DNA from: a bacterium
Lineage (GTDB): Bacteria > Bacillota > Clostridia > Lachnospirales > Lachnospiraceae
Length of the DNA: 44,471 nucleotides
Assembly: GCA_023663725.1 (NCBI GenBank)
Contig: JAMPGX010000002.1
Coordinates: 1 to 44,471 of the forward strand
Direction of reading: 5' to 3'
Shown here: in pieces, positions 16,034 to 37,400 of the stretch
Layout of the letters: the number at the start of each line of letters is the position of its first letter
Position numbering within the stretch: position 1 is the first letter of the stretch
Notes under the pieces: model-generated
Databases searched by the model: none
What the model saw: the letters and a program-made list of their open reading frames with translations, nothing else
What the model was told of the DNA's origin: nothing
Made by a program: the position numbers and the translations under genes

Positions 16034-17776
16034 TTAAGGCTTTCTGAGCCTGAACGCGGCCAGCAGCAGGTCCAGGCAGCGCACCTCTTCCAGCTGCAGC
16101 TCATATTGATGCGTTCGGGATGTCAGTACCACATCGCGGGAATCCTCGAACAGATTTTGAACCAGCCTTTCACAGCAGGACTTCAGGTCCTCGTCCTGCT
16201 GCCAGTCCTGTGTAAGCAGCATCTCCAACAGCCAGGCCAGGGTGTAGAGCTGTCCCGGAGCCTCCAGAGCCGTCAATCGGGTGAGATCGGCTGTAATTTC
16301 CCCCAGCGAGATGCGGCGCTCATGATCGAACTGTACGGTATAACCTGTATTTTGTTCTAATCGAAATGTGCTGGGAAGAGATTTCCACTCTGTCCACCTG
16401 TGCGTCCGCTCGTCAGAATCCTTGTTATCAGAGGAGTTCCCGCAGGCCAGCAGCTCGCGAAGCTCCAAGGTCTTGTCATATACTTGATAATCCTCCAGCA
16501 GCAGAACACAGTCCGCATATTGAAGATATTCCCCGGAGCCCCCAATGACCAGGATCGTGGAGATATCCCGCTCGCTCAGCTCCCGTATCCTGTCGGTGTA
16601 CGGGACAATTGGCTCCCTGCGCACCAGCTGGCGCATGAGCCGGTCCCGAATCATAAAATTGGTGGCGCTGGTGTCCTCGTCGATCAGCAGGAGGCGGCTG
16701 CCACTGTATACGGCCTCCACGATATTGACGGCCTGGGAGACGCTGCCGCTGGCGTGGACCGTGGAAAAAGCATGTATGCCGCCCTCACCGGGCAGGTAGG
16801 AAAAGAAGGGGGAGAGATCTGTGGGCTGAACACATCTGCCGTCCTCGGCGTAGATTTTACAGGCTGTCTCCTCCGTGATCACATATTCTCGGCCATCTCC
16901 CTTCACATGAAAATAAATCCCCTGCTCCAGCGCGTCCAGCAGCGTGCTCTTACCGCCGTACCCACCTCCTGTTATCACGGTAATTCCCCGTTTTATTCCC
17001 ATTCCGGTCAGTTCGGTGCCGTCCCCCAGGGGGATGCTTACCCGCAGACTCTCCGGCGAATGAAAGGGTACCGCCCCGTATAGCGGCATCTGGGTATCTC
17101 CCTGCCTGGGCAGGATGCTGCCGTCCGCCACAAATACAAGCAGACCTGTTTCTTTCAGAAACCTGCGGATATCTGTCTGCCTTCGGTATAGCTGTAGCTG
17201 TTCCCGAAGACTCTCCCTGTCCGCGCGTTCCAGACAGTCACAGATGGCATCCAGCAGCATTTTCATTCCCCTGTATCCGCTCTTCCCATTGACGCTGTGG
17301 CCGCCGATCAATGGGAATTGGAAAGCGATCCGCAGGCGGAACTCCCTGCGCTCTCGCATATACAGGCAGCCGGAACGTCTGCGGATCACAGAGTCCGTCT
17401 CCTGCAGGGAGAAATTCGGTTTTTCCCGTGCATCCTTGTGGTCGTTCTGCAGATCTTTTGCCAGGGCGTTCACCGGTCCCGCCAGGCTTCTCAGCAGCCA
17501 GTCCTCGCAGGGGACGTATTCTTCTGCAAGCTCTCCGGTGCTGCCCAGAAGCTCTTCCGGCACCCATACATACAGAATCATCCGCTGAGGCTCGCGGAAG
17601 CCCGTTCCTTCAAGGGTGAAGGAGATTCCCCGGTACTCATAGATCTTCGCATCCTCTATCGGCTGCTCGCTGCTGCTCAGGCTGCTGATATAGACCTGTT
17701 TGTCGGTGTAGAGATAGTGCAGGCAATCCTTGTTTTGCGTGTGGCTCTGGGCCATGATTTTTTTGAACTCTTTCAC
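16034..17776 (-). CDS. ABC-class ATPase (PF09818-like)
   Basis: The 580-residue protein resembles the predicted ABC-class ATPase family that has one ABC-type ATP-binding core without transmembrane parts. It has a P-loop GGGYGGKST at about residues 295-303, the signature-like ASGSVSQAVN and a Walker B LLLIDEDTSATNFMIRD, with the Asp-Glu pair for ATP hydrolysis. The N-terminal 280 residues look family-specific. The start is GTG at 17776, because AAAGGAG lies about 8 bases before it; the longer frame has no such site. The gene ends 25 bases from the convergent GLUG gene. It is preceded by a 343-nt leader with an intrinsic terminator, so expression is probably attenuated. Its substrate is unknown. 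Confidence 0.85.
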   Translation of the reverse strand: MKEFKKIMAQSHTQNKDCLHYLYTDKQVYISSLSSSEQPIEDAKIYEYRGISFTLEGTGFREPQRMILYVWVPEELLGSTGELAEEYVPCEDWLLRSLAGPVNALAKDLQNDHKDAREKPNFSLQETDSVIRRRSGCLYMRERREFRLRIAFQFPLIGGHSVNGKSGYRGMKMLLDAICDCLERADRESLREQLQLYRRQTDIRRFLKETGLLVFVADGSILPRQGDTQMPLYGAVPFHSPESLRVSIPLGDGTELTGMGIKRGITVITGGGYGGKSTLLDALEQGIYFHVKGDGREYVITEETACKIYAEDGRCVQPTDLSPFFSYLPGEGGIHAFSTVHASGSVSQAVNIVEAVYSGSRLLLIDEDTSATNFMIRDRLMRQLVRREPIVPYTDRIRELSERDISTILVIGGSGEYLQYADCVLLLEDYQVYDKTLELRELLACGNSSDNKDSDERTHRWTEWKSLPSTFRLEQNTGYTVQFDHERRISLGEITADLTRLTALEAPGQLYTLAWLLEMLLTQDWQQDEDLKSCCERLVQNLFEDSRDVVLTSRTHQYELQLEEVRCLDLLLAAFRLRKP

Positions 17777-17905
17777 GTTTTGCTCTCCTTTTTTGTTTGC
17801 TTGGTTTTTCCGCCTCCAGGCGGATGTATTCCTGCGGGGTCGTCCGGGCAGGGACCGGCTGCTTGGGAGAACAAGAGGATATGGTTTATGGCGTTTCTGC
17901 ACAAC

Positions 17906-17935
17906 AGAAAAAGACATACCTGAATCGTATGTCTT
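17906..17935 (-). terminator. Intrinsic terminator inside the ATPase leader
   Basis: On the minus strand AAGACATAC (17935-17927), a seven-base loop and GTATGTCTT (17919-17911) form a perfect 9-bp stem. The T run overlaps its end (CTTTTTC). Confidence 0.8.
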
Positions 17936-18015
17936 AGCCTTTCCGGTTCCATTCTGATTTCATGCGGGCTCTCTGGGGAATCCCCTCACCGACGCAATAC
18001 ATGAAAAAATTATAT

Positions 18016-18075
18016 TTATAGATAGAAAGGAATGGCTAATATGACATCTACCGCATATACACTTGTTCTCATCAT
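18016..18075 (-). CDS. Short leader ORF of the ABC-class ATPase gene
   Basis: A 19-codon frame (ATG at 18075, TAA at 18018-18016) begins about 43 bases after the predicted transcription start. AGAAGGGCGGTGG before the ATG gives a usable ribosome binding site. Its peptide starts MMRTSVYAV and ends IPFYL. Codons about 10-14 (GAT GTC ATA TTA GCC) are the very bases that would pair with the terminator arm, so ribosome position could decide termination. A role as a leader peptide is inferred; translation is unproven. Confidence 0.45.
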   Translation of the reverse strand: MMRTSVYAVDVILAIPFYL

Positions 18076-18136
18076 ATTAACCACCGCCCTTCTCTGTATG
18101 ATTGATTTTTTAATCTGTAGAATCATCATAGCATGA
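18041..18136 (+). CDS. Small hydrophobic peptide opposite the ATPase leader
   Basis: A 31-codon frame preceded by GAAAGGA at a good distance. The peptide is one hydrophobic helix: it starts MTSTAYTLVLIIL, continues with LLCMIDFLIC and ends RIIIA, like small membrane peptides and type I toxins. I see no convincing plus-strand promoter just upstream. A leader segment GTATGTCTTAGCC (17927-17939) can pair with GGCTAATATGACAT (18034-18047), which covers the start codon, so translation could be masked. The strong minus-strand promoter would produce an RNA antisense to the whole frame. It may instead be chance coding content of a regulatory leader. Confidence 0.4.
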   Translation: MTSTAYTLVLIILTTALLCMIDFLICRIIIA

Positions 18137-18211
18137 TTGTAAGGGAAAGTCAATTCCCATTTATCGGCTGGATTGCGCAGGTCAGTGAGTCACAGACATC
18201 CCTTTTCCGCG

Positions 18212-19766: not shown

Positions 19767-19795
19767 ATTATATTTTTCAGGGAATTATCTGTCAA
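19767..19795 (-). promoter_or_regulatory. Consensus promoter of the esterase gene
   Basis: On the minus strand TTGACA (19795-19790) and TATAAT (19772-19767) are 17 bp apart, a perfect sigma-A consensus. Confidence 0.85.
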
Positions 19796-20045: not shown

Positions 20046-20993
20046 ATGAACGATGGAGCACGAACCCCGTTGGAAGAGTTAAATCTGACAGATCGGTTTC
20101 TGTTTGCGGAGACGATGGATGAGCCGGAAGCTTATGAGGCCATGGTGGGAATTCTGCTGGGGGATGAGATCAGGCTGGCAGGGTATCCTCAGACGGAGAA
20201 GGAATTGCGGGTGTCGCCTGGATTGCGGGCCGTGAGGTTGGATGTGGTGAGCATGGACTCGGGTGGTCGGATCTATTTCACGGAGATGCAGAAGACGGAC
20301 ACGGGGAACTTGCTGAAGAGGAGCCGCTATTATCAGGCTCAGCTGGATGTGTCTCTGCTGGAGCCGGGGTGCAGTGATTTCAATCGGCTGAATGATAGTT
20401 GTCTGGTTCTGGTGGCGCCCTTTGATTTGTTTGGATACGGACTGTACCGGTATACCTTTCGGGGGCAGTGTCAGGAGGTGCCGGAGCTTGTGCTGCCGGA
20501 CGGTGCAGATAGAGTATTTATCAACACATATGGGACCAACAGGGAAGCTTTTTCACAGGAGTTTCTGGACCTCATGGAGTACATCAACGATACCAGAGAC
20601 GAGGTGGGAGCCCGAAGCGAAAGCGCCCGTCTGCAAGCGATCTGTAATCGCGTGGAGAGGGTGCGGCGCTCGGAGAAATGTGGGGTGAAGTATATGCAGA
20701 GATGGGAAGAGATCGAATACGCCAGGCAGGACGCATATGCGGAGGGACGGAGCGAAGGACGCAGCGCAGGATGGAGTGAAGGCCGCAGCGCAGGGCGGAG
20801 TGAAGGCCGTATGTCGGAGGTGATCCGCGCAGTCTGTAAGAAGCTGGTCAAGGGAAAGGACATGGCACAGATCGCGGATGAGTTGGAGAAAGAGCCGGAG
20901 GACATCGCCCAGATTTGTCGGGTGGCGGAGCGCTATGCTCCGGCATATGACGCGGATGCGATCTGTCGGGAACTGCTTGGAGATGCGGTGTAA
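20046..20993 (+). CDS. Rpn/PD-(D/E)XK nuclease-family protein
   Basis: The 315-residue protein matches the Rpn/PF12784 group of PD-(D/E)XK nuclease-like proteins. The core at residues about 12-150 shows the usual start (LEELNLTDRFLFAETM) and the nuclease signature RLDVVSMDSGGRIYFTEMQ, with the acidic residues and the Glu-x-Gln triad position. Homologous Rpn proteins promote RecA-independent recombination; many copies may be defence or transposase-derived. A linker of eight-residue Ser-Glu-Gly-Arg repeats (236-255) leads to a helical C-terminal domain. GAGGAGG seven bases before the ATG supports the start at 20046. It is a single gene, possibly with the HAD gene 97 bases downstream. Confidence 0.85.
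   Translation: MNDGARTPLEELNLTDRFLFAETMDEPEAYEAMVGILLGDEIRLAGYPQTEKELRVSPGLRAVRLDVVSMDSGGRIYFTEMQKTDTGNLLKRSRYYQAQLDVSLLEPGCSDFNRLNDSCLVLVAPFDLFGYGLYRYTFRGQCQEVPELVLPDGADRVFINTYGTNREAFSQEFLDLMEYINDTRDEVGARSESARLQAICNRVERVRRSEKCGVKYMQRWEEIEYARQDAYAEGRSEGRSAGWSEGRSAGRSEGRMSEVIRAVCKKLVKGKDMAQIADELEKEPEDIAQICRVAERYAPAYDADAICRELLGDAV
20751..20810 (+). repeat. In-frame 24-bp repeats in the Rpn-like gene
   Basis: Two and a half copies of a 24-bp unit encode SEGRSAG(W/R) octapeptides (20751-20774, 20775-20798, then SEGR to 20810). Such repeats can change in number by slippage or recombination and vary the spacing between the nuclease core and the C-terminal helices. Confidence 0.8.
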
Positions 20994-37182: not shown

Positions 37183-37261
37183 CGAGTCGCATGACACACC
37201 GGAACATTACCCGATATTCCATCACGGAATCATATCGGACAATATACCTGCCTATTTCATG

Positions 37262-37400
37262 TTCTTCTTTCATCCAGACTGTACTGTTGGTATCGGAATT
37301 GCACCGATTCAACCGCAATGTCACCATCGCGGGTCGCGGACTGGTGTGTCGCCACACATCACCGCCAGTAGGGAATTGCACCCAACCCCGAAGACGCACC
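37262..37400 (-). ncRNA. FMN riboswitch (RFN element)
   Basis: The minus strand shows the conserved RFN blocks in order: CTTCGGGGTTGGGTGCAATT, CCCTACTGGCGGT, AGTCCGCGACCC, the GGTTGAATCGGTGCAATTC arm and ACAGTACAGTCTGGATG. FMN binding lets the downstream terminator (37142-37182) form, shutting off riboflavin uptake. The gene it precedes, ribU, fits exactly. Confidence 0.95.

Follow-up and report, generated by a model that had tools for sequence, protein, structure and literature searches.

A conserved, probably uORF-controlled attenuator leader upstream of a PF09818 ABC ATPase gene in Lachnospiraceae

What controls an ABC-class ATPase gene that lies behind a short leader ORF and an intrinsic terminator, and what might such a leader sense? 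The gene is carried on the minus strand of a 44,471-nt stretch of Lachnospiraceae DNA (contig JAMPGX010000002.1; hereafter the window), and comparison of its leader with those of relatives points to transcription attenuation under ribosome control, to which a second layer acting on translation is probably added. We have good though not full confidence in this reading.

Layout of the leader and its competing helices

All parts of the leader lie on the minus strand. A near-consensus promoter (TTGACT-17-TATGAT; 18,125–18,153; located by sequence scan, with equivalents in relatives; predicted transcription start near 18,118), a leader ORF (uORF; 19 codons plus stop, MMRTSVYAVDVILAIPFYL; 18,016–18,075) preceded by the ribosome-binding site GAAGGGCGGTGG, and a 9-bp intrinsic terminator hairpin (17,911–17,935) with a T-rich tail to 17,903 are present as reported in the first-pass annotation of this DNA. 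The spacer between uORF and terminator measures 80 nt (17,936–18,015). The controlled gene encodes a PF09818 (ABC_ATPase) protein of 580 aa (16,034–17,776); its start was taken as the GTG at 17,776, consistent with homologs, and a longer frame from the ATG at 17,917 is also open.

Short ORFs were scanned for in the upstream regions of a window-like subset and of 80 loci of the genome collection, and 46 leaders were compiled (the window plus 45 of the 80 loci; three are doubtful). uORFs of relatives were chosen by start codon, ribosome-binding site and stop, so that their presence in all 46 is partly due to selection. A terminator-like hairpin is found between uORF and gene in 45 of the 46 (none for L102); some of these hairpin picks were afterwards revised, either manually or with a stricter rule. 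Pairing statistics cover 36 leaders, or the 35 in which the element downstream of the terminator is long enough; ten were left out as near-copies (L036, L043, L057, L062, L066, L077, L104) or as doubtful (L100, L102, L106). Of the two alignments, A2 (36 rows) includes L036 and omits L049, and A3 (20 rows) holds GCATCC-type leaders only. At least 10 of 12 promoter positions are matched in 32/36 selected leaders vs 6% of shuffles, and the promoter lies 39–51 nt upstream of the leader start in 27/36.

The operation of the switch rests on a competing partner absent from the first-pass annotation, a 5′ anti-antiterminator hairpin (H1) of 22 bp with one bulged base, in which the ribosome-binding site and start codon of the uORF (left arm, 18,071–18,093) pair with its own 3′ half (GTCATATTAGCCATTCCTTTCT; right arm, 18,024–18,045). 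The isolated H1 stretch folds at −26.5 kcal/mol vs a shuffled mean of −13.8 (z −4.60; 0/200 shuffles as low), and the same folding in five relatives gave z −2.10 to −5.42. In A2, H1 forms a 14-pair helix with 84.5% of cells paired (27–57% when the arms are slid) and double changes at 11 of the 14 pairs; 0/500 shuffles reach its paired fraction, its number of double-changed pairs or its covariation score. By mean duplex energy over 36 leaders, H1 arms with their own partners gave z −10.1 in 20,000 partner permutations (0/20,000 as low), although related leaders are not independent, so that this and the permutation figures below are not probabilities. The own partner was better than the cross-pairing mean in 36/36 leaders, and likewise in 36/36 under earlier region limits.

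The 11-bp antiterminator pairing of the first-pass annotation is exact as described: TTAGCC:GGCTAA (6 bp) and ATGTC:GACAT (5 bp), with ATA bulged. Its 5′ strand, ATGTC-ATA-TTAGCC (18,034–18,047), lies in the uORF and overlaps the H1 right arm, and its 3′ strand, GGCTAAGACAT (17,929–17,939), overlaps the left arm of the terminator. As in vmlR/cplR-type attenuators, the 5′ hairpin that contains the uORF and the antiterminator are competing structures. H1 and antiterminator overlap in the window, while in GCATCC-type leaders the covarying antiterminator strand adjoins the H1 arm. Relative to permuted partners the antiterminator gave z −5.8 (36 leaders; 0/20,000 as low), and 3/20,000 permutations were as low for nine window-like leaders. 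The own partner was better than the cross-pairing mean in 27/36 leaders and no better in 9/36 with a region widened into the terminator loop after the sequences had been read, the first, narrower terminator region giving 23/36 and 13/36. In A3 the antiterminator takes the form TATCnGATG with CATCCGATA, with 77.5% of cells paired vs 20–34% when slid; its covariation score is reached by 3/500 shuffles, and only 2/8 pairs change on both sides, which 419/500 shuffles also reach. The window and the two leaders closest to it have diverged in the spacer, with the antiterminator strands and H1 nearly unchanged. The antiterminator pairing is exclusive with the terminator and weaker in GCATCC-type leaders, and the leader arrangement is more than chance, judged by the promoter counts and by an antiterminator that surpasses permuted pairing.

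Folding with a masking ribosome was examined in 18 of the 36 leaders. Left-arm occupancy with the ribosome in place exceeded the shuffled-ORF mean in 14/18, and lay above all ten shuffles in only 4/18, the window included; in the window it was 0.14 free and 0.83 with the ribosome (shuffled mean 0.51, maximum 0.72). The covariation check proposed in the first-pass annotation revealed compensatory changes in H1 and a few in the antiterminator, and homologous leaders largely keep both pairings (own partner better in 36/36 for H1 and 27/36 for the antiterminator), which supports that annotation's central proposal of a transcription attenuator driven by ribosome position.

A further element, CTTGTTCTCC (17,866–17,875), likewise absent from the first-pass annotation, follows the terminator. 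It is complementary over 9 bp to GAGAACAAG in leader codons 2–5 (18,062–18,070), a stretch that resembles the ribosome-binding site of the gene, and, via an overlapping stretch, to that site itself (GGAGAGCAA; 17,780–17,788; 9 bp, one G-U). Among 35 leaders, pairing of the element with the leader codons (z −8.7) and with the gene's site (z −4.1) was in each case unmatched by permuted partners (0/20,000), the own partner exceeding the cross-pairing mean in 32/35 and 25/35 leaders, respectively (32/35 and 26/35 under earlier region limits); the best stretches for the two partners overlap by at least 4 nt in 18/35. Clear compensatory changes in these pairings include those of L060 (GACGGTT:GACCGTC vs the usual ACGATT:AATCGT) and L054 (GGATGA:TCATCC vs GAATGA:TCATTC). 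In read-through RNA the element would either hide the ribosome-binding site of the gene or pair with the early leader codons, and since it is made before the gene's own site, the latter pairing may set in first. By equilibrium folding without pseudoknots (28 leaders), the gene's site is mostly closed (mean open 0.22 free) and is not opened by a ribosome on the leader (0.22–0.24). The partner stretch starts at nt 15–18, largely beyond a start-codon ribosome, in 13 of 19 TILF- and MKF-type leaders. It spans nt 4–16, under such a ribosome, in the window and the four leaders nearest to it; here a ribosome on codons 1–5 covers GAGAACAAG, and the translational layer may thus be different.

Distribution of the leader

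Protein relatives are present in 75/101 genomes of the genus, and the same leader design is found again upstream of PF09818 genes in Lachnospiraceae and in other Bacillota. A model (R1) built from A2 and run on the 101 genomes gave 19 matches at E < 0.01, of which 12 are loci that went into the model. The seven additional matches comprise six located upstream of a PF09818 gene in the same orientation (for G021 only the C-terminal part of the gene was matched) and one (G064) at a contig end, so that 18/19 precede PF09818 genes. There were 28 genus matches above E 0.01; the 12 inspected are all ordinary gene starts, and one outside those 12 (G018:C46, E 0.156) lies just before a PF09818 match. 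No second copy of the leader was found in the same genome by DNA at E 0.001 or by R1 at E 0.5. For R1 on 41 of the 80 loci, 13 outside the compilation match at E < 0.01, and in several of these the leader precedes a tandem PF09818 paralog.

R1 was also run on 299 genomes of the family and 391 of the class, and 36 further loci (E up to 0.01) were inspected. Leaders precede PF09818 genes in six (L142, L144, L146, L147, L157, L163; genes judged by sequence and, for four, also by P-loop pattern), L146 and L157 being the same genes as L049 and L061. One leader lies before a major facilitator superfamily (MFS) transporter (L143, 117–1,563, minus strand; Mef(A) model 57.6 bits vs a cut-off of 675) and one, of the same type, before a GNAT-family protein (L165, 1–1,566, minus strand). 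By sequence and folds both have H1 and a leader stretch complementary to the left arm of the terminator, and neither protein reaches a resistance-family cut-off. The remainder comprise L145 (below) and 27 ordinary gene starts or chance matches, so that R1 alone is not specific outside the genus.

Some loci depart from the common layout. In L145 (1,501–1,610) a leader-like ORF of 36 codons overlaps the start of the next gene, which we take to encode an MgtE magnesium transporter, with no terminator seen between. L127 (1,501–2,383) has an intact leader before a PF09818 gene matched only in its C-terminal part. L095 and L101, related PF09818 genes without an R1 match, have in common another short ORF (MKKKKIRRVPVAEC / MKKKKIRRVPVTES), which lies 169 and 236 nt upstream of the match start and has a strong ribosome-binding site; it is perhaps a second leader type.

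A tree was built from 84 of 125 P-loop ORFs; leader loci L059, L060, L063, L065, L079 and L083 have no P-loop-pattern ORF and are absent from it. The window protein falls in a 34-row clade (support 100; some rows are near-copies or doubles) with a leader detected in 33/34. In a 10-row paralog clade of the same genus R1 detected none, and leaders reappear in 13 of the other 40 rows, where 'none' means not detected: L100 was counted as none, yet has a leader peptide like that of L099.

Ribosome position, the proposed switch and its product

The compiled uORFs vary in length (14–31 codons) and their peptides differ widely (MMRTSVYAVDVILAIPFYL, MTTLYLFCSDVRLTALIYR, MKKLYTTILFPIVSDDILITDIFAR, MNRYNRMKFFEMSGKTLITKTVF and others), with a constant layout. 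L033 has lost 2 nt, so that its uORF is read in another frame and encodes a wholly different peptide (MKNKCICPNC...), with the RNA elements kept. Of 12 groups, 7 were usable for peptide pN/pS, which ranged from 0.47 to 1.48 with few changes in each group (the L063 group, read from a wrong base, was left out). Given the frame shift in L033 and this weak protection of the peptide, what matters appears to be where the ribosome stands, not the sequence of the peptide, and the naturally frame-shifted leader argues cleanly that sensors of this kind can respond to the former rather than the latter.

Stall geometry was assessed with the +16 leading edge of the vmlR start-codon toeprint (PMC9226507; this and the other papers cited by PMC number are taken in excerpt). 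With the P-site on codon 1, the predicted antiterminator strand is free in 37/39 leaders (exceptions L103 and L035, in which the strand was mis-picked). The last stall codon that leaves it free is codon 4 in the window and codon 6 in the median, and L094, L070, L072 and L080 allow only codon 1; the stage common to nearly all leaders is the start codon. Since a stalled ribosome can occupy only early codons if the antiterminator strand is to stay free, the predicted geometry points to stalling at or just after the start codon. Excerpts of the published work describe lincomycin and retapamulin acting at the start codon of the vmlR leader (PMC9226507), a cplR uORF thought to stall at its start codon (PMC10201436) and tetracycline stalling at the toiL start codon (PMC12121999).

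In the normal state H1, which masks the ribosome-binding site of the uORF with the uORF's 3′ half, would form, or ribosomes would clear the ORF; in both cases the terminator would form and transcription would stop near 17,906. If a translation inhibitor held a ribosome on the uORF start codon or immediately downstream of it, H1 could not form, leaving the 3′ half of the uORF to take up its alternative pairing and capture the left side of the terminator, and RNA polymerase would read into the ATPase gene. If read-through follows a stalled ribosome in this way, the product is predicted to be necessary when translation is blocked. Both the inducer (translation inhibitors) and the function of the product are inferred. 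Drug sensing is the most likely purpose, and if that holds, the ATPase would help cells to survive when translation is blocked.

The product matches PF09818 at 335.6 bits (Pfam cut-off 23.2) and no NCBIfam family; the target is thus not an ABCF antibiotic-resistance protein. The C-terminal domain of MRB1590, a PF09818 relative from Trypanosoma brucei, does not reach the Pfam cut-off in the product, and one close bacterial structure is available, a Vibrio vulnificus ATPase (5d6a). To our knowledge there is no uORF control of MRB1590 or of the Vibrio ATPase, and their likeness to the present system lies in the product, not the leader, RNA binding by the bacterial product being putative. MRB1590 itself is reported to bind RNA (excerpt of PMC4538832). 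No paper on the bacterial function of the family was found. A link to phage defense was considered and rejected, as PADLOC holds no family for the window protein; two relatives gave weak mad8 matches only.

Tandem PF09818 paralogs lie in one run behind the leader in L070 (2,428–6,635), L072 (2,995–6,611) and L059 (3,285–6,725) and around the leader in L080 (1,234–5,122), which suggests a two-subunit ATPase. In L070 a GNAT acetyltransferase gene lies between the paralogs and a T-box leader (RF00230; 7,845–8,097, plus strand) ~1.2 kb downstream of the tandem unit; in L059 the paralogs are followed by two ABC-transporter proteins. Elsewhere in the window, a perfect consensus promoter (TTGACA-17-TATAAT; 19,767–19,795, minus strand) lies inside the longest frame of a sialate-esterase-like ORF, which therefore probably starts later. 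An Rpn-family nuclease/putative transposase-like protein (TIGR01784) with repeated EGRS/AGRS units is encoded at 20,046–20,993 (plus strand), and an FMN riboswitch (RF00050, 107 bits) lies at 37,258–37,399 (minus strand).

The same sensor could instead be a general translation-stress switch, answering any failure to start or continue translation, with an ATPase that serves not drug resistance but survival under stress, the handling of RNA or a toxin-like function. We regard this reading, which overlaps the one preferred here, as quite possible, if on balance doubtful. It would fit a product with no NCBIfam family whose fold matches that of an RNA-binding PF09818 relative (MRB1590; excerpt of PMC4538832), and in E. 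coli the uORF of topAI, a toxin-antitoxin gene, responds to at least five drug classes (excerpt of PMC12121999); however, the two other full R1 leaders lie before genes for an MFS transporter and a GNAT protein, both of types frequently linked to drugs, even if neither reaches a resistance-family cut-off.

An amino acid starvation attenuator of the trp or his type, stalling at cognate leader codons, is highly unlikely. The uORF, terminator and antiterminator that it needs are all there, and three alanines in a row occur in L050, L061 and L094, but across the 46 compiled peptides no run is longer than three and no residue repeat is shared, the peptide drifts and in L033 changes frame, and by Pfam the product is no biosynthetic enzyme; the amino acid operon version of the first-pass proposal is thus not sustained. 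We give similarly little credence to a small-molecule riboswitch or T-box with an incidental short ORF, which a structured leader with a terminator and a spacer (17,936–18,015) that looked T-box-like at first reading might suggest: the window leader and the leaders of 14 relatives' loci match no Rfam family at gathering score, a loose threshold yields only snoRNA-type matches far below gathering scores, and the ORF start and its ribosome-binding site persist while the spacer shows no conservation. Chance arrangement near an ordinary terminator, conceivable for single-locus pairings of 5–11 bp and with 8 terminator-like sites in 5 kb vs 3.8 expected, is refuted by conservation, as seen in the covariation and permutation tests and in the genus matches before PF09818 genes (18/19, of which 12 of the 19 are model-building loci).

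For the ribosome-controlled attenuator, a more far-reaching and distinctly tentative proposal, less likely to hold than to fail in its full form, is that PF09818 proteins of the window clade make up a new class of inducible ABC ATPase, distinct from ABCF, that acts on drug-stalled ribosomes or their RNA. Their expression would be turned on by a dedicated sensor of start-codon stalling, in which leader codons imitate the ribosome-binding site of the gene, coupling transcriptional and translational release. The PF09818 family gains a functional clue from its position behind a conserved, probable sensor of blocked translation; the conserved switch suggests that the ATPase helps cells cope with blocked protein synthesis, and intrinsic drug tolerance in gut Lachnospiraceae may gain an unrelated ABC ATPase family.

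Comparison with known uORF-controlled leaders

The vmlR leader of Bacillus subtilis, as described in excerpts of PMC9226507, resembles the window leader in having a uORF in a 5′ anti-antiterminator hairpin, an alternative antiterminator and an intrinsic terminator, in a pairing formed later that acts on the hairpin by which the ribosome-binding site of the gene is hidden, and in stalling at the very start of the uORF, which is predicted here. It differs in that the vmlR uORF has 3 codons (MIN) and an ABCF target, whereas uORFs here have 14–31 codons and a PF09818 target, and their own codons carry the H1, antiterminator and ribosome-binding-site-like strands. In the cplR leader of Clostridioides difficile (excerpts of PMC10201436) a 5′ hairpin likewise sequesters the uORF, terminator and antiterminator are alternatives, and translation is controlled besides transcription, a layer that is putative here. 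The cplR uORF is MRI and its target an ABCF protein; its terminator hairpin hides the gene's ribosome-binding site, a task that in the window a separate element could perform. toiL-topAI of E. coli (excerpts of PMC12121999) is similar in placing a uORF before a non-resistance gene, with drug sensing reported for toiL and putative here, but acts by translational repression followed by Rho-dependent termination inside the gene. We take the window leader to be a real, conserved, uORF-controlled attenuator that would work like the vmlR and cplR leaders, without being a member of their group by target.
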